Assembly: GCA_023137005.1 (NCBI GenBank)
Contig: JAGLQE010000106.1
Span: 1 to 21,507 of the forward strand
Direction of reading: 5' to 3'
DNA length: 21,507 nt
Origin: Thermoplasmata archaeon
GTDB lineage: Archaea; Thermoplasmatota; Thermoplasmata; SG8-5; JAGLSY01
A program made the position numbers and the translations under genes. Of this stretch, positions 5,392-19,988 are shown piece by piece. A model generated the notes under the pieces. That model saw only the letters and a program-made list of their open reading frames with translations. It searched no databases and was not told the DNA's origin. Within the stretch, counting starts at the first letter, position 1; every line of letters begins with the position of its first letter.

Positions 5392-8300
5392 ATGAGAGAA
5401 ACAATACTAAGGAGAAGTGGGCTGGGGAGTAGATCGATAGTGTCCAATGAGGGCATGAAGAGGGCTTTGACGATATTCATTGCTTTATCAATGATGGGTA
5501 GTATTTTGACCATCATTTCAACAGATGTATATTCGCATTCTGGAGATGTTATATTCTCTGATTGGGCATTCAGCCAGCCTACCATGGACGGCATGATAAA
5601 TGCTGGAGAATGGGATGATGCTGTGATGCTTGACCTTTCGATCATCCCTGGAACAACCATGGAAACCTACCTCTATGTGATGAATGATGGCACAAATCTG
5701 TATATGGCATACGATGCCGTGGGTGATGAGTTCTCTGATATGATGGATGGAGCTATCTTCTGCTTCGACACCGACCACAATGGCTTTGAGACAGATATGG
5801 AGGATGACCAATTCATCATCGGGGATATATTTGGGATTACTGGTGGACAAAATCAAGCACGCTATGTATATGATATTCTAATGCCTGGATGGGTAGAAGA
5901 AAGCTGTCCCTTCACTGAGCCGGGATTGGATGGAGATTATGGATTTTCCTCCTCACCCAATAGCGCGAACGACCACAGGATGTATGAGATCACAATTCCA
6001 TTGGCTCTATTGTCTGTTGCTCCGGGAGACACCATTGGCTTTGCCTCACATGGCTTCATGGGAGAAGGGGTCCTTGACTTCATGATGTGGACCAGGGCTG
6101 GATGGCCAGCCTGCCAATTCGCACCACAGCCATTGTCTGAATATGGAGATATCATACTGGATACACCTCCAGACCTTGTGGGGATGAGGCTCACACCAGA
6201 CCTTGATGAGAACTTCGGACTACCTGGTACTGATGTGGATTATCTTATGACGGTCAAGAACAAAGGTACATCTGGAGCAGATACCTTTGAACTTGATTTT
6301 ACTTCAGCCCCATTGGGTTGGGCTGTCACTTTCTATGATGAGACTGGAACTGTTCCACTCACAGATACAAATGCCATTCCCACACCGGATACTGGCCCGA
6401 TAAACACAGGGGACAGCATGAACTTCATAGCCCGTGTGACAGTGCCTGGTGGTGCCCTACCTGGAGATTGGGATATCGCTGATATGAATGCCTCTTCCTT
6501 CAATGATCCTTCAGTTTATGAGATATCTGAATTGAATACAACTGTCGCCTTTGACATACTGGTGGTGGACGATGATGCGGGATTGGATTCCGAACTGTGG
6601 TATACGAGCTCCCTCACCAGCCTGGGATATTCATTCGATGTGTGGAATGTCAGTGCTGAAGGTTCACCGGACATGAACTCGCTAGATACCCATCTGGCCG
6701 TCATCTGGTTCACTGGTAATGACCAATGGGACCAGGCCACTCTCAATAAGGGCAACCGTGCAGTCCTGGAAGAATATCTTGACAATGGTGGAAAACTTTA
6801 CATGTCCTCAACCGGACTTGGACAGGATGCATATAATTGGAATGGCTTTGATGATTGGTATGAAACATATTTCGACATGACCCAGGAAAGCACTGCAGGG
6901 GGGGCGAATACCGTATTCAGTCAGCCTACCAACCCGGTCACCAATGGCATGGCACCGATGGAGACACATATTGGAGACTACTGTACTGGCCTCAATGGTC
7001 AGATATCGACCCATGAACCCATAATGCTGGCCGATCCAGCCTTCAATATCACATTGGCAGGTGTGAATGATACCGCCATGAGCCTCGAACATTATGCTTA
7101 CAGGCTGTTCTACACTGGCTTTGACTTTGCAGATGTCAACAATAGCGTGGTCAGGGATGATCTAATGGACAGGATCCTAAACTGGCTACTTCCAGTGGAT
7201 GGAGTGTCTATATACCCACATCAAATGGGCTACAATGTGCCTGGAATTGAGGTTAACTACACCCTGACAGTGAAGAACATTGGGAGCAGTATTGACAGCT
7301 TTAATTTGGCTGGTATTGGAGATCCACTCTGGCCTATTGCTATTTACGATGAAACAAATACATTCATAATAGCGAACACAGGACCTATTGATCCGTATGA
7401 TTCTGTAGATATCACTGTTCGTGTGACCGTGAACCCAGCAGCCGTACCAGGGGACATGGATATTTCATTGATAACAGCCACATCCACCAATGATGGCACC
7501 CAGGCTTTGACCATGCCCCTGGAGACCCAGGTCTATGGAGATATCCTACTAGTGGACGATGACAAGCATCTGGATACCGAATTATGGTATGTCAATTCAT
7601 TGGTGGCCAATGGCTACACTTATAATATCTGGAACAGGACCCTTTACGGAGTTCCAACCTTGGACCTTCTTCAGGACCACACAGCAGTGTTGTGGTTCAC
7701 TGGCAATTCAGATGGCAACGGATGGGGAGAGGGCGATACCCTGAACACCGATGACAGGGCATTGCTCGAAAACTATCTGGACGGTGGTGGAAGATTCTAT
7801 CTTTCCAGTCAGTATGCGGCTCAGGAGGCTCAATGGGGCCCGGAGCCTTGGGCATCATGGCATGAGGAATTCCTGGATTCCACCATGGATATGAACTGGT
7901 GGGGGGAGAATGACCAGATAGGACAACTTGGAAACCCAATAGGAGATGGTCTCAATATCCAGACCTATAACCTTACAGGAGACCAATGCCGGTGGCTGGA
8001 TAATCAGACCTCGACCTTCAATGTCCTGGCTCCTGCAGAGCCGTGCTTCGATATCCAGGCATCACCAGGTGAATGGACCATGCTCAATGCGGATGAAGGA
8101 ACTTATCGGCTCGTATACTCGGGCTTTGACTTCTCGGGTGTGAATGACAGTGTTGACAGAGACTTGCTCATGTGGCGTATCCTGAACTGGCTCATGCCTG
8201 TGGATGGTGTATCTATCTATGAGGAACAGGATGGTTATGGATACGGAGGGGACACCGTGGACTACACCCTTACAATTAGGAACATCGGCTCCAATATGGA

Positions 8301-11300
8301 CACCTTTGACCTGCAAAACATTGGGGGATTCCACGGGTGGACCACCGAGTTCTGGGATGATACAAACACCATACAGTTGATAGATACTAATGGGGATTTT
8401 TATGGACGGCCAGATACCGGAACCATAATGCCTGCAGGCATAGCCCCTGGAGATACAATGAACATCACTGTGAGAGTGTATATCGATCCACTGGCACTGG
8501 TAGGCAATGAGGACAGCCACTGGATAATGACGAACTCAACCAATGATCCAACTATAAATGACCTCACTATAGTGAGAGCTACAGTTCCCTATGATGCGCC
8601 CTGGTCAGACGATATGGAGATCGCACCTGCCCTCGGAATGGCCTACTGGGATCCAGAGGGGTTATGGCATCAAGTGGACTCGGCAAGTCCATTCCCAGAA
8701 TGGAATAGCTTTGATTCGAGCTGGTGGTACGGTCAGGACGCGACCGGGGACCACGAGACCGGCGGACAGAATTTCGGCATGCTGGCTTCCCCACCCATAG
8801 ACCTCACACGCGCTTCCTTCGCTGGCTTGGGCTTCATGGACTGGTATGATGGGGACACATGGTGGAATGCCAGACAGATAAAGATCAGTGTTGATGGCGG
8901 TGATTGGCAAACGATAGACACCATGGACAATATGGCCACACCTCTCAGAGCATGGACCCACCATTCCGTGAACCTCGATGCCTATATTGGCCATGTGGTG
9001 AAGATAGGATTCTGGTTCGACCTTGGCCAGTTCGGCTGGGGTGGCATGAACGCGCCCAATGGATGGTATATTGATGATATTGTCATTGACATAACACCAC
9101 CAGAACCTCCCACGAACACCACTGCCTCATTGTCCGAGACTGGCTATATTGCTGGATCTGACTGGGGTTTCTTCGGACCTGTCATAAATGACTACACGGC
9201 CACGCATGCATCCGATGACTTCGATAACTCTCAAGGAGAATGGGATTCCTACCAGGGAAATAGTGTTCCACAGAACGAGCCAGTGGTTGCGGATGGAAAT
9301 CTCATGGGAGGCACATATGTGGAGGTGCAGACCGCGGCAGACGGTGGTGCCACACAAAGATGGCAGGAGCAATTGGTGGCCGAAGGCGAGATCGTGGTGG
9401 CACAGGCTGAGCCCACGATCAATAGCGGCCTGCTTCTTGACGGGACATACACGGACACGCAATTGGCCGATGGACTGGACCAGGATTGGGAAGAAGAAAC
9501 ACTAGGTCTTGTGGAAACCGTGGAGCCGACCTCTGAGCCCACCATCACCAGTGGAATTCTTGTGGAAGGAACATTTGTCGATGTCCAGGCACCTGATGGC
9601 CTTGAGGAGAAATGGACAGAGGAGACCGTGAATGTAAAGGAAACTGTGGTAACTCTGGCAGAGCCAGCCATTACCTATGGGGTCGTGAACAGCGGCACCT
9701 TTGCAGATACTCAGACCATTGATGGCACCAGCGAGGTCTGGACAGAGACAAACTACCAGGCCAGCAAATGGGGATTGGAGATCGACTATTCTCTGACATT
9801 CGCCACCGTGCCTGCCGGAACCTTTGATATATCCATCCTGGCCAATTACACGGATGCGGATGCCGCGGACCAGGTCAGCATATGGCTGTATGACTGGACA
9901 GTGCCCATCTGGGTCGATACCGGCGTGGATGTGTTCAAGGGAAGTCCAGAGACTCTGATCAACCTTCCTGGTATGGCGAATAACTACGTCAGTCCTACTG
10001 GAGAAGTTCAGATAAGGTATGCGGATGATGCGAGGGCCAATGGAGAGGCCATGGGTTTCCTGAGCATTGATTATCAGAACATCAGCGTTGATTCATCATA
10101 CGAGGGGCTGGACCTGTACTATGAATGCACCTTCACTGCGGTTCCCGCAGGAACAATAGATATCGCAATATTAGCTAATTACACGGATGCGGATGCCGCA
10201 GACCAGATCAGTATTTGGCTGTATGATTGGGTCGCGACCGGATGGGTGGACAGTGGACTGGATGTGTTCAAAGGCAGCCCGGCAACATTGACCAACCTTC
10301 CCGGCATGAGCAATAACTATGTCGGACCTGGTGGAGAAGTTCAGATTAGATTGCTCGATGACCTCCAGGGAACTGGTGAGAATGTTGGATTCTTGTGCAT
10401 TGACCACATCAGTGCGAGTGTGGATGAGGCCACTGCGGCCATGGACCTTTATTATGAAATGACATTCGCTGGCACGCCAGCCGCTACCTTTGATATTGCA
10501 GTACTGGCCAATTACACGGATGCGGATGCTGGAGACCAGATAAGCATATGGCTATATGACTGGACATTGCCAGGTTTCATTGATTCCGGGCAGGATGTGT
10601 TCAAAGGCAGTCCTGCGACATTGACCAATCTTATTGGCCTGCCGAGCCCACTCTATGTCGGGCCTGGCGGAGAGATCTGGATAGAGTATCAGGATGATGC
10701 TACAAGTGTCGGAGAGGATGTCGGCGTGCTGAGGATAGACCATCAGGAAGCCAGCTACTCCGAGAATGTGAGGTCCCTCGATCTTTATTACAATTGCACC
10801 TTCCCCCAGGAAGTGTACGGGGTATTTGACATCCAGCTCAGAGGAGCGTGGTACTTCGATACTCTTGATCCACTGGACAATATCAATATCCTGGTGTATA
10901 ATTTCACTTCCAAGGCCTTCGATGATACAGGAGTAAATGTCAACAAGGACTCAATGGCCTACAGGTACGTGTACAACCTCGCTGCGGAGCATTATATGAA
11001 CGCCTCCACCTACGAGGTCTTCATAGGATTCAAGGATGATTATCAGGCCGTGGGAGAGGATACTGGCCAACTGTATATTGACTATTTGAATGTACGAACC
11101 TACACTAGCGCGGGATGGCATGCCTGGCAATTCGATGTGTTTGATAGTCCAGATCTGGAAACATGGACCTTCAATGTCGAGGCCAGTAGCTCGGCCAATA
11201 CCGAAAATGAGGGATGGTTGTTCGAATATTCATTCGATAATATTGTCTATTCTCCATTCGCCACCAATATAGAGTTCCTGGCCACGGATACCGTGGATAT

Positions 11301-12180
11301 TATCAAATCCTCTGATATTCCAATAACCGGCTCTGGAAATGTGTACATAAGAGCGACCGACACTGACAAGGGGTGGGGCAATGAATCATCGGATTACATC
11401 AATGTCGATCACATGACCATCGTGCCAACCAGTGCCATCGGAGTCAGAATGGGCAATGTCGATGTCAGCTGGGAGGCTTCAGTATCTCCGGATGTGGCAT
11501 CATACAATATCTATCGGGCGACCAGTATAGGTGGGACATACCTTCAGATAGCTGAGGGCGTGATCGGCCTGAATTATATCGACATCGATGCTGGTGACCA
11601 GGACTGGAATGACTATTTCTATTATGTGAGAGCCGTGGATTCCTCGGGAATTGAGGATAGTGCCATATCTCCGGATAGGGCGGTCAAATATGTGAGAGCC
11701 GTGGACGATGGCTGGAATTTTGTTTCATTCCCTGTTGAGGTCAGTGACACTTCGCTACTGACCGTCCTTCAAACCCTTGACTGGAATTATGTGCTTTGTT
11801 ACAATACCTCTGATCCAGATAAGTGGAGCACCAACAATATAGTGAGGCCAGACTTTATGGACGACCTATGGGCTTTGGATCATACAAGAGGGATGTGGCT
11901 CAATACCACGGGCAATGACAATATGATTGTCGCGGGAAGTGTCCGGACATCCACCACCATCACCCTCAAGGCTGGCTGGAATCTTGTCGGATATACATCC
12001 TTCAATACATCCACCACCATGAGCGATGCTCTCTTCGGCCTGCCAGTGGATCTTGTCGAGAGATTCGATGCCCCATCACCTTACATGATGATCCCAATGC
12101 TTGGAACTGATATCATGATGCCTGGGGAGGCTTATTGGGTAAGCGTGAGTGCTGATTGTGTATGGACAGTGGATTGGTAA
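5392..12180 (+). CDS. Giant modular secreted surface protein (2,262 residues)
   Basis: A Sec-type signal peptide (hydrophobic core about residues 25-44 after MKR) begins at an internal Met22. An ATG at 5455 is therefore an alternative start. Module order, with approximate residues, is as follows. A CBM9/DOMON-like beta-sandwich (50-260) is followed by a NEW3-like CARDB/Ig domain (263-385) and a GATase1-like Rossmann domain (388-600; ILVVDDDAGLDSELWY, VIWFTGN, YLDNGGKLYMSS). A second NEW3 (603-715) and second GATase1-like domain (717-935) follow, then a third NEW3 (938-1065). Next are a MAM-like jelly roll (1067-1230), four ~42-residue repeats (1296-1458), four ~111-residue repeats (1463-1900) and a fibronectin type III domain (about 2013-2100). 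A C-terminal module (2103-2262) has paired GWNFVSFP and GWNLVGY motifs and ends AYWVSVSADCVWTVDW. No C-terminal membrane anchor, PGF-CTERM or sorting motif is visible, so attachment is unclear. Adhesion or envelope roles are inferred from the architecture only. Confidence 0.85.
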   Translation: MRETILRRSGLGSRSIVSNEGMKRALTIFIALSMMGSILTIISTDVYSHSGDVIFSDWAFSQPTMDGMINAGEWDDAVMLDLSIIPGTTMETYLYVMNDGTNLYMAYDAVGDEFSDMMDGAIFCFDTDHNGFETDMEDDQFIIGDIFGITGGQNQARYVYDILMPGWVEESCPFTEPGLDGDYGFSSSPNSANDHRMYEITIPLALLSVAPGDTIGFASHGFMGEGVLDFMMWTRAGWPACQFAPQPLSEYGDIILDTPPDLVGMRLTPDLDENFGLPGTDVDYLMTVKNKGTSGADTFELDFTSAPLGWAVTFYDETGTVPLTDTNAIPTPDTGPINTGDSMNFIARVTVPGGALPGDWDIADMNASSFNDPSVYEISELNTTVAFDILVVDDDAGLDSELWYTSSLTSLGYSFDVWNVSAEGSPDMNSLDTHLAVIWFTGNDQWDQATLNKGNRAVLEEYLDNGGKLYMSSTGLGQDAYNWNGFDDWYETYFDMTQESTAGGANTVFSQPTNPVTNGMAPMETHIGDYCTGLNGQISTHEPIMLADPAFNITLAGVNDTAMSLEHYAYRLFYTGFDFADVNNSVVRDDLMDRILNWLLPVDGVSIYPHQMGYNVPGIEVNYTLTVKNIGSSIDSFNLAGIGDPLWPIAIYDETNTFIIANTGPIDPYDSVDITVRVTVNPAAVPGDMDISLITATSTNDGTQALTMPLETQVYGDILLVDDDKHLDTELWYVNSLVANGYTYNIWNRTLYGVPTLDLLQDHTAVLWFTGNSDGNGWGEGDTLNTDDRALLENYLDGGGRFYLSSQYAAQEAQWGPEPWASWHEEFLDSTMDMNWWGENDQIGQLGNPIGDGLNIQTYNLTGDQCRWLDNQTSTFNVLAPAEPCFDIQASPGEWTMLNADEGTYRLVYSGFDFSGVNDSVDRDLLMWRILNWLMPVDGVSIYEEQDGYGYGGDTVDYTLTIRNIGSNMDTFDLQNIGGFHGWTTEFWDDTNTIQLIDTNGDFYGRPDTGTIMPAGIAPGDTMNITVRVYIDPLALVGNEDSHWIMTNSTNDPTINDLTIVRATVPYDAPWSDDMEIAPALGMAYWDPEGLWHQVDSASPFPEWNSFDSSWWYGQDATGDHETGGQNFGMLASPPIDLTRASFAGLGFMDWYDGDTWWNARQIKISVDGGDWQTIDTMDNMATPLRAWTHHSVNLDAYIGHVVKIGFWFDLGQFGWGGMNAPNGWYIDDIVIDITPPEPPTNTTASLSETGYIAGSDWGFFGPVINDYTATHASDDFDNSQGEWDSYQGNSVPQNEPVVADGNLMGGTYVEVQTAADGGATQRWQEQLVAEGEIVVAQAEPTINSGLLLDGTYTDTQLADGLDQDWEEETLGLVETVEPTSEPTITSGILVEGTFVDVQAPDGLEEKWTEETVNVKETVVTLAEPAITYGVVNSGTFADTQTIDGTSEVWTETNYQASKWGLEIDYSLTFATVPAGTFDISILANYTDADAADQVSIWLYDWTVPIWVDTGVDVFKGSPETLINLPGMANNYVSPTGEVQIRYADDARANGEAMGFLSIDYQNISVDSSYEGLDLYYECTFTAVPAGTIDIAILANYTDADAADQISIWLYDWVATGWVDSGLDVFKGSPATLTNLPGMSNNYVGPGGEVQIRLLDDLQGTGENVGFLCIDHISASVDEATAAMDLYYEMTFAGTPAATFDIAVLANYTDADAGDQISIWLYDWTLPGFIDSGQDVFKGSPATLTNLIGLPSPLYVGPGGEIWIEYQDDATSVGEDVGVLRIDHQEASYSENVRSLDLYYNCTFPQEVYGVFDIQLRGAWYFDTLDPLDNINILVYNFTSKAFDDTGVNVNKDSMAYRYVYNLAAEHYMNASTYEVFIGFKDDYQAVGEDTGQLYIDYLNVRTYTSAGWHAWQFDVFDSPDLETWTFNVEASSSANTENEGWLFEYSFDNIVYSPFATNIEFLATDTVDIIKSSDIPITGSGNVYIRATDTDKGWGNESSDYINVDHMTIVPTSAIGVRMGNVDVSWEASVSPDVASYNIYRATSIGGTYLQIAEGVIGLNYIDIDAGDQDWNDYFYYVRAVDSSGIEDSAISPDRAVKYVRAVDDGWNFVSFPVEVSDTSLLTVLQTLDWNYVLCYNTSDPDKWSTNNIVRPDFMDDLWALDHTRGMWLNTTGNDNMIVAGSVRTSTTITLKAGWNLVGYTSFNTSTTMSDALFGLPVDLVERFDAPSPYMMIPMLGTDIMMPGEAYWVSVSADCVWTVDW
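9277..9766 (+). repeat. Four ~42-residue tandem repeats inside the giant protein
   Basis: The repeats begin at 9277, 9409, 9535 and 9661, giving periods of 132, 126 and 126 bp. Each opens with EP, then x-I/V-x-x-G, G-T-Y/F-x-D/E-x-Q, a D-G pair and a W-x-E. The protein consensus is clear, while the DNA has diverged. Confidence 0.85.
9778..11095 (+). repeat. Four ~111-residue tandem repeats inside the giant protein
   Basis: Matching positions lie at 9778, 10111, 10444 and 10780, giving periods of 333, 333 and 336 bp. The first three share the box LANYTDADAADQ (with A-G for A-A in the third), SIWLYDW, DVFKGSP and G-E-x-G-x-L-x-I-D. The box is also strongly conserved at DNA level (AATTACACGGATGCGGATGC). 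The fourth copy is degenerate, keeping the YY-x-C-TF opening and the closing GEDTGQLYIDY. Confidence 0.9.
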
Positions 12181-12229
12181 GCAACAGCTGAACGAGCAGG
12201 TGAGGGCGAGTTTCCTTTTGGATTGGAAA

Positions 12230-12275
12230 CCTTTTCTTTAGAGCCCGAACCAGCGGAGCGAGGGGAAAGAAAAGG
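12230..12275 (+). terminator. 10-bp perfect inverted repeat after the giant gene
   Basis: CCTTTTCTTT (12230-12239) and AAAGAAAAGG (12266-12275) are perfect inverted repeats with a 26-base loop. A smaller pair, GTTTCC and GGAAAC, lies just before it (about 12210-12229). Position downstream of a long gene suggests a transcript end. Confidence 0.4.
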
Positions 12276-12285
12276 CTTCCGGTGG

Positions 12286-12317
12286 GTGCTGATTGTGTAT
12301 GGACTATAGACTGGTAG
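12286..12317 (+). repeat. Degenerate second copy of the giant gene's 3' end
   Basis: This 32-base stretch repeats bases 12149-12180. The first 19 bases (GTGCTGATTGTGTATGGAC) are identical, and overall 27 of 32 match by my count. In frame it encodes ADCVWTIDW-stop against ADCVWTVDW-stop in the gene. It lies about 105 bases past the true stop, with no open frame leading into it. Confidence 0.85.
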
Positions 12318-12318
12318 A

Positions 12319-12343
12319 CTTTCAGGCTTAAAGGACCTGAAAG
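12319..12343 (+). terminator. 8-bp hairpin downstream of the duplicated 3' end
   Basis: CTTTCAGG (12319-12326) and CCTGAAAG (12336-12343) pair perfectly around a nine-base loop. It follows the duplicated 3' end and precedes the methyltransferase promoter. No long T tract follows. Confidence 0.4.
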
Positions 12344-12356
12344 CCCCAGTCGATAA

Positions 12357-12364
12357 TCATAAAT
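12357..12364 (+). promoter_or_regulatory. Probable TATA box of the tRNA G10 methyltransferase gene
   Basis: TCATAAAT is centred about 27 bases before the GTG start, which would give a leaderless or nearly leaderless mRNA. Confidence 0.35.
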
Positions 12365-12387
12365 CACCCAACAGGATACCAATCCTC

Positions 12388-13389
12388 GTGAAGCTGATCA
12401 TCGAGCTATCCGGAGAGCAGACAGACATGGCCGTGTCAGAGGCTATTGGAGCGGCCAGTGCCATTGATGGTTCTACCAGGCTTATTGAACAGGATGGTCG
12501 TATCGCTATTTTGGACACGAGTTCAGGGGCCGATATCCTTTCTGAAAGGCTAGCACTGTGTTGGCATATCTCCGAGTATCTCTTTTCATTTGACCTGGAT
12601 GAAATAAATGATGTCTTCGATGGCCTGGACCTTGGAGGAAAGACCTTCGCTATCAAGATGAAAAGGCTTGATGATAAATGGAAACCAGAGGACAGCCAGG
12701 CCATGATCGAAAAAATAGCCGGTGTTTTGGAGAGAACCGGCAAGGTCGACCTGAGATCACCAGATATGATCCTCCGTGTGATAATGGGAGAAAAATTACA
12801 TGCTGGCTGGCAGCTTCATGAGATAGATCGCACTAGTTTTGAAGCAAGAAAGGGAAAGGACAGGCCCTTCTCCCACCCCATAAGCCTGCATCCACGGTAT
12901 GCCCGGGCGATGGTGAACCTGGCACGAGTTAAGCCGGAGGATGTGCTTCTAGACCCCTTCTGCGGGACTGGAGGAATACTCATCGAAGGTGGGATGATCG
13001 GTGCCCACATCATTGGTTCGGATATGGATCCGCGCATGATCGAGGGTTGCGGGATCAACCTATCACATTTCCTGGGGAAGGATAATGAATTCCAACTTCA
13101 TGAGCTGGATGTGGCAGATATAGGAAAGCTGGGAAAGGTCGATGCGATTGCCACTGACCCACCCTATGGCAGGTCGGCCAGCACTGCGAAGGAAGATGTG
13201 GGCGAGTTGTATGAGAGGGCTTTGGAAGCCTTTGTCGATATTCTCAAGCCTGGAGGAAGACTGGCAATTGTTTTCCCCGATAAGAGATATGTCAAGCTCG
13301 CCAGCAAATATCTATCACTTCTGGAGGTCCATGATCTCTTTGTCCATCGAAGCCTTACTAGATATTTTTGTGTTTTTGAAAAAGAATGA
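12388..13389 (+). CDS. tRNA (guanine-10) N2-methyltransferase, Trm-G10/Trm11 family
   Basis: The enzyme methylates N2 of G10 in tRNA using S-adenosylmethionine. The 333-residue product has an N-terminal THUMP-type half (about residues 1-160) and a C-terminal Rossmann methyltransferase. The SAM-binding motif is DPFCGTGG near residues 189-196, with the acidic strand end GSDMDPRMIEG following. The catalytic N-methyltransferase motif DPPYG is near residues 257-261. The linker HPISLHPRYARAMVNLARV matches the family. It starts with GTG. No nearer ATG preserves the THUMP strand MKLIIELSGEQ. The next gene is convergent, with only about 26 bases between stops. Whether it makes m2G or m2,2G cannot be read from sequence. 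Confidence 0.9.
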   Translation: MKLIIELSGEQTDMAVSEAIGAASAIDGSTRLIEQDGRIAILDTSSGADILSERLALCWHISEYLFSFDLDEINDVFDGLDLGGKTFAIKMKRLDDKWKPEDSQAMIEKIAGVLERTGKVDLRSPDMILRVIMGEKLHAGWQLHEIDRTSFEARKGKDRPFSHPISLHPRYARAMVNLARVKPEDVLLDPFCGTGGILIEGGMIGAHIIGSDMDPRMIEGCGINLSHFLGKDNEFQLHELDVADIGKLGKVDAIATDPPYGRSASTAKEDVGELYERALEAFVDILKPGGRLAIVFPDKRYVKLASKYLSLLEVHDLFVHRSLTRYFCVFEKE

Positions 13390-18623: not shown

Positions 18624-19988
18624 CTATATTACCTTCTTCTTGGCAACCTTCTTGGCATCCTCTTCTATCTGGGTACCACAGGCATAGCACATGACTGCAT
18701 CGCCAGATATCATTGTACCGCAAGATGGACAGGCTATCTCCTCGTCCTCACCGCCAGATGCTTCCTCTGCTGGTGCATCGCCGGAATCCAATTGGGTTCC
18801 ACAGGCATAGCACATAACAGCGTCGCTGGAGATCATGGTGCCACAAGATGGACAGGCCTTCTCATCGTCACCGCCAGATGCTTCTTCGGCCGGAGCTTCT
18901 TCTTCAGTAGGGGCATCCTCAGCAGGGGCCTCTTCTTCGGCTGGAGCATCGCCACCATCAGAATCCAATTGGGTTCCACAGGCATAGCACATAACAGCGT
19001 CGCCGGAGATCATGGTGCCACAAGATGGACAGGCCTTCTCATCGTCACCGCCAGATGCTTCTTCGGCCGGAGCCTCTTCTTCAACCAGCTCTACCGGGGG
19101 TTCTTCGGCCGGAGCTTCTTCTTCAGCAGGGGCCTCCTCTTCGGCTGGTGCTTCTTCTTCAGCAGGGGCTTCCTCTTCGGCTGGAGCTTCTTCTTCAGCA
19201 GGGGCTTCCTCTTCGGCTGGAGCTTCTTCTTCAGCAGGGGCTTCCTCTTCGGCTGGAGCTTCTTCTTCAGCAGGGGCCTCCTCTTCGGCTGGAGCTTCCT
19301 CTACTGGCGCAGGGGCGGCTGCGGCCTGTGAAGCCATACCTCTCAGGGATTCTTCCTTCTGAAGGAGTTCCTGCTCCCTCTCCATGAGGCGCTTTCCGTC
19401 AGTGATTATCTTATCTTTATTAGAATTGAGATCTTCCTCTTCCTTGGCCAGTGCCTTCTCTCTCTCGAGAAGTTCCTCGCCCTTGGACATGAGCTTCTCC
19501 ACGATCTCCTTCAATTCGCCGTGAGCCTTCAATTGCTCCTCTTCCTTGGCGATCATGGCATTTCTTTTCTCTGCCACTTCATCCTCGATGGTCTTTATCT
19601 CCTCCATCTTGGAATATATCTCGGTCTCGCGAGTTGCCAATTCCTGCTGCTTGGAGTTTATCTCGGCCTCTCTGGACTCGAAACCCTTTTCCAGGTCCAC
19701 GATTCTGGCCTTCTCATCGTCAAATGCCTGCTTATCAGAATCCAGCTGGCTCTTCATTGAGTCCAGTTCGCTGGTCTTGGATTCCAGTTCGCTTGTTTTG
19801 GATTCCAATTCACTGGCTTTGGAATTGAGTTCGCTCTCCTTGGTCTCGAACGAGGCCTTGAGCTCCTCAATTTCCTTTTCTTTCTCAGCAACAGCAGTTT
19901 CTTTGTTGCGCAATTCCTCTTCCTTGTTCTTAAACTGTTCAGCCTGCTTTTGCATGACTTCCCAAAGTGATGGTTCTTCTCCGCCCAA
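18624..19988 (-). CDS. Coiled-coil protein with EEAPAE repeats and three zinc ribbons
   Basis: The 454-residue product has three parts. Residues about 8-222 are an almost uninterrupted charged coiled coil, with heptad-like runs such as KASELESKTSELESKTSEL. Residues about 230-297 are about eleven EEAPAE hexapeptides, forming an acidic, probably extended linker. The rest holds three near-identical zinc ribbons (CPSCGTMIS...CYACGTQ, near residues 318, 377 and 418) separated by shorter acidic linkers, ending in a lysine-rich tail. There is no signal peptide or membrane segment, so it should be cytoplasmic. The start is TTG, supported by GGAGG seven bases upstream. The next leftward-reading gene upstream is a KaiC-like ATPase. 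A scaffold or adaptor role is my inference. I do not recognise the full-length protein. Confidence 0.85.
   Translation of the reverse strand: MGGEEPSLWEVMQKQAEQFKNKEEELRNKETAVAEKEKEIEELKASFETKESELNSKASELESKTSELESKTSELDSMKSQLDSDKQAFDDEKARIVDLEKGFESREAEINSKQQELATRETEIYSKMEEIKTIEDEVAEKRNAMIAKEEEQLKAHGELKEIVEKLMSKGEELLEREKALAKEEEDLNSNKDKIITDGKRLMEREQELLQKEESLRGMASQAAAAPAPVEEAPAEEEAPAEEEAPAEEEAPAEEEAPAEEEAPAEEEAPAEEEAPAEEEAPAEEEAPAEEEAPAEEPPVELVEEEAPAEEASGGDDEKACPSCGTMISGDAVMCYACGTQLDSDGGDAPAEEEAPAEDAPTEEEAPAEEASGGDDEKACPSCGTMISSDAVMCYACGTQLDSGDAPAEEASGGEDEEIACPSCGTMISGDAVMCYACGTQIEEDAKKVAKKKVI
18664..19080 (-). repeat. Three copies of the zinc-ribbon-coding segment
   Basis: Segments starting at 18787 and 18964 (177 bp apart) are nearly identical over about 110 bp. 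I see one substitution (GCT versus GCC) in that span. The C-terminal copy (about 18664-18735) is more diverged. The high identity points to recent duplication or ongoing gene conversion. Confidence 0.85.
19101..19300 (-). repeat. 36-bp minisatellite encoding paired EEAPAE hexapeptides
   Basis: About five and a half 36-bp units repeat, each with two 18-bp halves that use different synonymous codons (TCAGCAGGGGC against TCGGCTGGAGC on the plus strand). Units are almost identical, so copy number probably varies between strains. All changes seen keep the reading frame. Confidence 0.9.

Follow-up and report, generated by a model that had tools for sequence, protein, structure and literature searches.

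A dispersed element ending in a pseudoknot RNA motif probably brings replacement ends to the genes it enters in Thermoplasmata

The window analyzed here is a 21,507-nucleotide (nt) stretch of a Thermoplasmata archaeon genome (contig JAGLQE010000106.1, positions 1 to 21,507, assembly GCA_023137005.1), and it carries a giant surface-protein gene of 2262 amino acids (aa) whose 3' end occurs twice, on either side of a short sequence that is repeated elsewhere in the genome. We consider it likely that this locus represents a short, non-autonomous mobile element that inserted in the surface-protein gene and brought a replacement gene end with it. At the family level, the element is a dispersed repeat with a covarying RNA and a constant right boundary that is followed by an orphaned gene or transfer RNA (tRNA) end; the two ends have diverged mostly synonymously, and the uninterrupted gene of relatives runs into the DNA that follows the right copy. 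The window copy would have inserted in the same direction as the family. The term surface protein comes from a preliminary description of this DNA and from our own reading, with no family match behind it; the only Pfam match of the protein is NPCBM_assoc, below threshold.

All features of the locus lie on the + strand. The gene spans 5392..12180 in the list of open reading frames (ORFs), and its last codons are now those of the left copy (12145..12180, stop TAA), the working gene end and, by our reading, an element-borne replacement, which matches the right copy (12282..12317, stop TAG) at 30 of 36 positions. Over the shorter pair 12149-12180 and 12286-12317, the preliminary description counted 27 matches in 32 bases with the first 19 identical; our recount agrees, with base 20 the first mismatch, and so do shuffles (left/right local alignment score of 25 vs. 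a maximum of 18 among 5000 shuffles), while repeat detection on the window returned the gene-end pair with 86% identity across 35 nt. It is equally correct that the right copy encodes the same C-terminal residues and a stop (VGADCVWTIDW, vs. VSADCVWTVDW in the left copy) and that no open frame enters it, at least among the + strand ORFs of 70 aa or longer in the window list. Between the two copies lie a tail from the restored stop to the conserved core (12181..12189), which differs in length and sequence among copies, and the conserved core itself (12190..12280), which carries the pseudoknot RNA motif and ends in AAAGAAAAGGCTTCC; the right copy begins one base past the end of this repeat. Directly 3' of the right copy, at 12319..12343, reading and folding reveal a hairpin (CTTTCAGG...CCTGAAAG) that is probably the gene's original, terminator-like hairpin. 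The suggestion that the 3' end had been replaced by a related copy corresponds to our best reading, a diverged copy in use with the displaced original left behind, and the suggested cassette boundary does exist as a specific boundary, but it is the right end of the element.

The element belongs to a sizeable family. A search of its own genome with 12100-12360 returned 17 matches including the window, the other 16 all inside 12190-12288, and 9 of the matches are no more than 100 nt from the end of a contig, where repeats are expected. When 40 relatives were searched as well, matches were found in 12 of the 41 genomes (own genome included in this and the following counts), and a covariance model trained on 34 copies gave 146 matches in 9 of 13 genomes; the model hits the window copy at 12185-12281 (E 3.9e-16), which was one of its training sequences. 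In a class-wide draw of 200 genomes, examined with stricter filters, the model matched 21 genomes and 11 of 78 genera, and an exact-pattern scan of contigs of GTDB species yielded 15 loci in six assemblies labeled Thermoplasmata, Methanomassiliicoccales and, in one case, Euryarchaeota. For the comparisons below, we used 142 copies, i.e., 137 of the 146 model matches (nine weak, truncated or overlapping ones were dropped) and 5 copies from genomes G005, G011 and G012; adding 23 copies from the 200-genome survey gave an enlarged set of 165 copies, 154 of them usable. Rfam gave no match to window positions 11900-12600 up to E 1, and among 20 further loci it returned, at E up to 0.1, two tRNAs and nothing else; a literature search over titles and abstract openings did not find the element described. 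Two viral contigs match one short pattern and none match another, and neither of the two looks like the element: in one, which is phage-like (L322), the match sits inside an ORF, and the flanks of the other (L323) are unlike those of the element.

The members share a core of about 95 nt whose right end is a covarying pseudoknot. Specifically, GGTGAGGGC (12199..12207) pairs with GCCCGAACC (12243..12251) on the + strand to form helix 2 of stem 1, in which 92.9% of cells are paired across the 34 copies, and GGAAACCTTTTCTTT (12225..12239) pairs with AAAGAAAAGGCTTCC (12266..12280) to form stem 2, an inverted repeat (I1) that is 93% complementary and whose 3' strand is the right end of the element, a boundary that is consistent among related copies. 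Because the two stems cross, the motif is an H-type pseudoknot. Over the same 34 copies, 87.1% of stem 1 cells are standard pairs, 11 of its 12 pairs vary on both sides, and its covariation is 0.583, compared to a shuffled mean of 0.193 and values of 0.019-0.168 for slid strands, in a sequence-based alignment whose stem 1 columns were picked after inspection. The number of further pair types in stem 1 is not striking since 47 of 500 shuffles reach it. For the end helix of stem 2, 119 copies scored on average 4.16 with their own partner strand, vs. permuted maxima of 3.84 overall and 3.99 within genomes (200 permutations each). One pair of stem 1 is U-G in 18 of the 34 copies, which points to the + strand as the one that folds. 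An additional hairpin occurs in the loop ahead of stem 2 in L018, L021 and L023 (G000) and in L176 and L177 (G001), a modularity similar to that of functional RNAs.

With a duplication called at a left/right flank alignment score of at least 16, the end of the left-flanking gene or tRNA recurs directly after the pseudoknot in 50 of the 132 copies with enough flank, vs. 18 of 2000 mis-paired flanks and 34 of 3471 flanks from different genomes. Measured from where the model hit stops, the right match begins no more than 5 nt away in 48 of these 50 copies. The enlarged set shows the duplication in 60 of its 154 usable copies and either a duplication or an adjacent tRNA in 73. The tRNA genes, which were found by ARAGORN at loci such as L050, L067, L197 and L324-L332, are immediate neighbors of the element in 21 of 165 copies (13 on the right, 8 on the left). 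A Pfam run on ten proteins confirmed topoisomerase VI A, an M29 peptidase, a class-I glutamine amidotransferase (GATase) and a class-II tRNA synthetase as targets, together with triosephosphate isomerase, a proteasomal ATPase in reverse orientation and a FlpD/MvhD subunit entered near its 5' end. Some targets are shared across genera: one gene is entered in G000 and G001, and also in G011 at a different site, and a second in G005 and G009. In one copy found by reading and excluded from the family counts (G002:C56), a restored topoisomerase VI A end is followed by a 109-aa ORF without a Pfam match, an element-like RNA end and the displaced gene end, and elements can therefore accommodate genes ahead of the RNA, past the restored end. 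Among the matches listed, left copies far upstream (up to 6-7 kb where that much sequence was available) included nothing convincing.

A few copies depart from this orientation. In L022 (G000:C458), L055 (G001:C136) and L041 (G002:C15), the element faces the 3' end of a proteasomal-ATPase-like gene (the Pfam run was for L041), and a TTA of the element is the stop codon of that gene on the opposite strand. In L116 (G026) and L115 (G036, the FlpD/MvhD-type target), the insertions are near the 5' end of reverse-strand genes, and the left copy restores the start of the gene, not its end. Reverse-strand ORFs ending at the element were not above control in general, with 8 of 157 copies (240 nt on the right) vs. 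4 and 7 at two shifted control positions, the second of which only 107 copies were long enough to provide.

Insertion at tRNA or gene ends with a restored end is a classic integrase trait, known from islands and prophages in gene 3' ends (e.g., icd) and tRNA ends where the element-borne end restores the target. The elements described here share this property, and the alternative that survives best, although we regard it as unlikely, is that they are integrase-type integrative elements, with attachment (att) sites at gene and tRNA ends and an element-borne end restoring the gene, that were reduced to mini-elements mobilized in trans, the pseudoknot being a passive or regulatory end. In its favor, restored gene or tRNA ends and displaced fragments are present in the family, one copy (G009:C97) has a 347-aa integrase-family ORF at a distance of 3.6 kb, and in G003:C55, where the insert is of another type, an ORF matching the integrase family PF00589 comes directly after the displaced gene end. 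However, one conserved end stands beside many unrelated target sequences, no integrase recurs beside the copies, and PF00589, present in six of eight genomes, has no match in G001 (74% complete) and G002 (83% complete) despite their 30 and 20 element copies. Further, a left duplication scoring 16 is missing from 11 of the 13 copies with a right-side tRNA; in the remaining two, a stretch resembling a tRNA end lies 104-138 nt to the left.

How the two ends differ bears directly on their history. In the 30 coding cases (of the 50 duplications, 14 were left out as non-coding or unclear and 6 as gapped), mismatches amount to 53/489, 25/492 and 172/492 at codon positions 1, 2 and 3, respectively, and 158 of the 202 changed codons are synonymous and 44 non-synonymous; two of the cases look mis-framed by the script and three have no mismatch. 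Since an untranslated orphan should not gain a third-position bias, most of the divergence predates insertion and arose while both ends were coding, and local duplication followed by decay, which the preliminary description had offered as its alternative, is disfavored by this pattern across copies. The distance from the end of the aligned left copy to the stop codon is at most 2 nt in 16 of the 30 cases and at most 11 nt in 24, with no fixed length for the copy. The share of third-position mismatches among all sites compared climbs with distance from the junction (44/485, 42/404, 39/273, 22/152, 16/101 and 9/56 in successive 15-nt bins).

The same data bear on the alternative that the elements transpose with an unusually long target-site duplication, produced by a staggered cut of 20-100 bp or by target-primed reverse transcription, in which case the two copies would have been identical at the start. 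Direct copies of variable length on both sides of the element are what such a process would leave, but 172 of the 250 mismatches being at third positions and a left copy that ends near the stop codon rather than at a fixed length both speak against it, and a reverse transcriptase (RVT_1) had no match in G000, the sole genome searched for it; we hold this explanation to be improbable. Slightly less probable still is an exchange of 3' ends among paralogous surface-protein genes, as the preliminary description had proposed. The part of that proposal that stands is the large family, as other genes of the genome do carry the same C-terminal module (22 matches to a 149-aa query including the gene itself, and 34, 34 and 55 in three relatives) and some module genes have an element at their end (G001:C182, C229 and C136, G012:C41 and G004:C32). 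The part that does not is exchange as the cause: because the same layout adjoins the pseudoknot at unrelated housekeeping genes and at tRNAs, the agent is the element and the paralogue family is the background of the target. A diversity-generating retroelement, with the right copy as template repeat and the gene end as variable repeat, would account for a gene 3' end that recurs downstream in non-coding DNA but is extremely improbable, given that the mismatches are not adenine-specific (right-copy bases A57 C55 G76 T54; 147 transitions and 95 transversions in 25 of the 30 coding cases), that most changes are synonymous, contrary to what diversification would produce, and that RVT_1 is without a match in G000 as noted.

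The polarity of the insertion, that is, which end is foreign, was assigned using orthologues with an empty site, all from other species. In 9 of 23 comparisons, representing 6 of 15 insertions, what follows the right copy matched DNA downstream of the orthologue, with scores of 21-73 vs. shuffle maxima of 13-17 in those rows. The DNA after the left copy reached that range in one of the 23 (score 21), and there the orthologue itself seems to bear the left hairpin of an element; in the remaining 13 comparisons, neither side exceeded the shuffle maxima. Wherever the comparison can be made, the right copy thus reads as the native end and the left copy as the end that came with the insert.

Several observations weigh against this interpretation. 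Among the 154 usable copies, 81 have neither a duplication nor an adjacent tRNA, and in 14 of the 23 orthologue comparisons the DNA after the right copy has no above-shuffle match to the downstream sequence of the orthologue. The orthologue is nearer to the right copy in 13 comparisons and to the left copy in 9, with one tie, and because identity splits in this way, we assigned the foreign end from the downstream test instead. For the window copy, the empty site has not been seen, as the contig of its probable orthologue in G001 ends before the site, and hence the direction of its insertion is inferred from the family; its outer helix also has only two of five standard pairs. Finally, a partner protein was not found in the genomes searched, several of the relatives being incomplete.

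The search for such a partner covered the neighborhood of the copies and several protein families. ORFs up to 3.5 kb to the left and 3 kb to the right of the 142 copies (often only about 700 nt was available) were clustered by blastp, and among the largest clusters listed (up to 40) no mobile gene, nuclease or integrase was recognized, the clusters that were recognized being target genes and ordinary neighbors. The window insert itself (~100 nt) has no + strand ORF of at least 70 aa and hence no endonuclease ORF. PF01385 (IS605 OrfB) was found in none of 12 genomes. PF07282 gave seven weak matches in five of seven genomes, over the cut-off in two; two that were inspected as TnpB candidates proved to be zinc-ribbon proteins, three lie in frames of 1689-2789 aa, and the other two are short. 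Cas1 is present in 4 of the 12 element-bearing genomes, with none found in G000. Because most of the genomes are incomplete, the absence of a partner is weak evidence.

Under the insertion hypothesis that we favor, the element would have entered the surface-protein gene about 12 codons ahead of its end. The left part of the element, where these last codons are copied in recoded form, would keep the frame and supply a new stop, followed by the short tail, and the right end of the element would be the structured pseudoknot motif that ends at 12280; the original last codons, the downstream hairpin and the next gene would have been pushed rightward, leaving 12282-12317 as an orphan unread by the listed frames. 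As to how the element spreads, we offer a proposal rather than a result, and a tentative one that we give clearly less than an even chance: the element may home to the corresponding conserved gene ends in other cells. The break would be made in trans, most simply by a putative RNA-guided nuclease for which the pseudoknot would be the scaffold and the target sequence on the right flank the guide; the allele that carries the element would be the template for repair, and the left copy, being recoded, would rescue the gene as well as evade re-cutting. An RNA end abutting target-derived sequence, targets conserved across genera and a diverged rescue copy fit RNA-guided homing. In 24 of 25 coding cases, the two copies differ within the first 20 nt (median of 3 mismatches), although divergence alone would give the same result. 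The guide step specifically is disfavored by the lack of an adjacent motif beyond a weak preference for G (position -1 in 25 of 50 and -2 in 24 of 50), by divergence that is lowest beside the junction, and by the one coding case in 25 without a mismatch in the first 20 nt. The full version, a natural home-and-rescue drive in archaea in which a pseudoknot RNA with a 3'-flank guide directs a host- or trans-encoded putative nuclease to conserved gene and tRNA ends and an element-borne recoded end rescues the target and evades cutting, is possible but, in our judgment, doubtful.

It is instructive to compare the family with known systems. IS200/IS605 elements with TnpB and omegaRNA, and their miniature derivatives, have a right-end pseudoknot RNA followed by flanking sequence as a possible guide; unlike them, the family has no convincing TnpB in the genomes searched and its flanks show no clear target motif, and restoration of a gene end is not known as a feature of IS605 elements. 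Casposons are archaeal and insert at tRNAs and gene 3' ends, whereas no terminal inverted repeats were noticed in the element and, as mentioned, Cas1 occurs in a minority of its genomes. The closest layout is that of fungal mitochondrial mobile ORFs (Glomus sp.; Allomyces atp6), which enter atp6, atp9, cox2 and nad3, encode LAGLIDADG or GIY-YIG endonucleases in organelles, and join a foreign C-terminus in phase while the native end, nearer to that of relatives, is displaced downstream (PMC3630166). Duplication of the gene end, an insert-borne end in frame and a displaced native end are common to both, at the family level in our case and, for the window copy, with the direction inferred. Compared to these mobile ORFs, the differences are the archaeal chromosomes, a window insert free of an endonuclease ORF, the conserved pseudoknot RNA end and more than 100 copies at many targets. 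Hence, our best reading is a non-autonomous, RNA-ended insertion element with a recoded gene end, i.e., the layout of the fungal endonuclease elements minus the endonuclease.

Two inserts that differ in type from the element were also encountered. At L285 (G003:C55, 1-1800), a topoisomerase VI A-like gene has an insert of ~660 bp with ORFs of 155 aa and 48 aa in its 3' end; ~150 nt of displaced gene end come next and then a convergent PF00589 integrase-family ORF. No pseudoknot was seen, and the insert follows the same restore-and-displace plan. Its ORF pair resembles a toxin-antitoxin pair (PIN-like) by eye, but the 155-aa ORF has no Pfam match and we make no claim for it. At L286 (G011:C85, 640-980), an upstream M29 peptidase paralogue has a displaced gene end and an insert of ~210 nt that contains a GGCTCA/TGAGCC hairpin.

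If the insertion reading is right, some Thermoplasmata genomes hold tens of tiny elements each, which interrupt conserved genes and tRNAs and mend them with diverged ends that they bring along, so that gene ends differ in history from the rest of the gene, which matters when trees are built or genes annotated. A testable case for an unrecognized form of RNA-guided or RNA-marked mobility would also come from the RNA end and its target-derived 3' flank. Were the home-and-rescue drive true, it would represent RNA-guided, programmable machinery distinct from TnpB, IscB and Cas; recoded rescue ends are a design feature of synthetic home-and-rescue gene drives.

Some further observations concern individual copies and the rest of the window. 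Nested elements (L110, L118, L119, L108 and L141) were repeatedly inserted before the CGCAG of stem 1 of the outer copy, and in L326 (G005:C48, contig positions 1332-1584) the whole element and its flank occur in tandem with 160-bp spacing. Elsewhere in the window, a 34-bp repeat of 2.2 copies (2259-2334) lies around the 5' end of the minus-strand gene 1940-2275, and an in-frame 36-bp tandem repeat (19102-19302) encodes PAEEEA-type repeats in a 454-aa protein.

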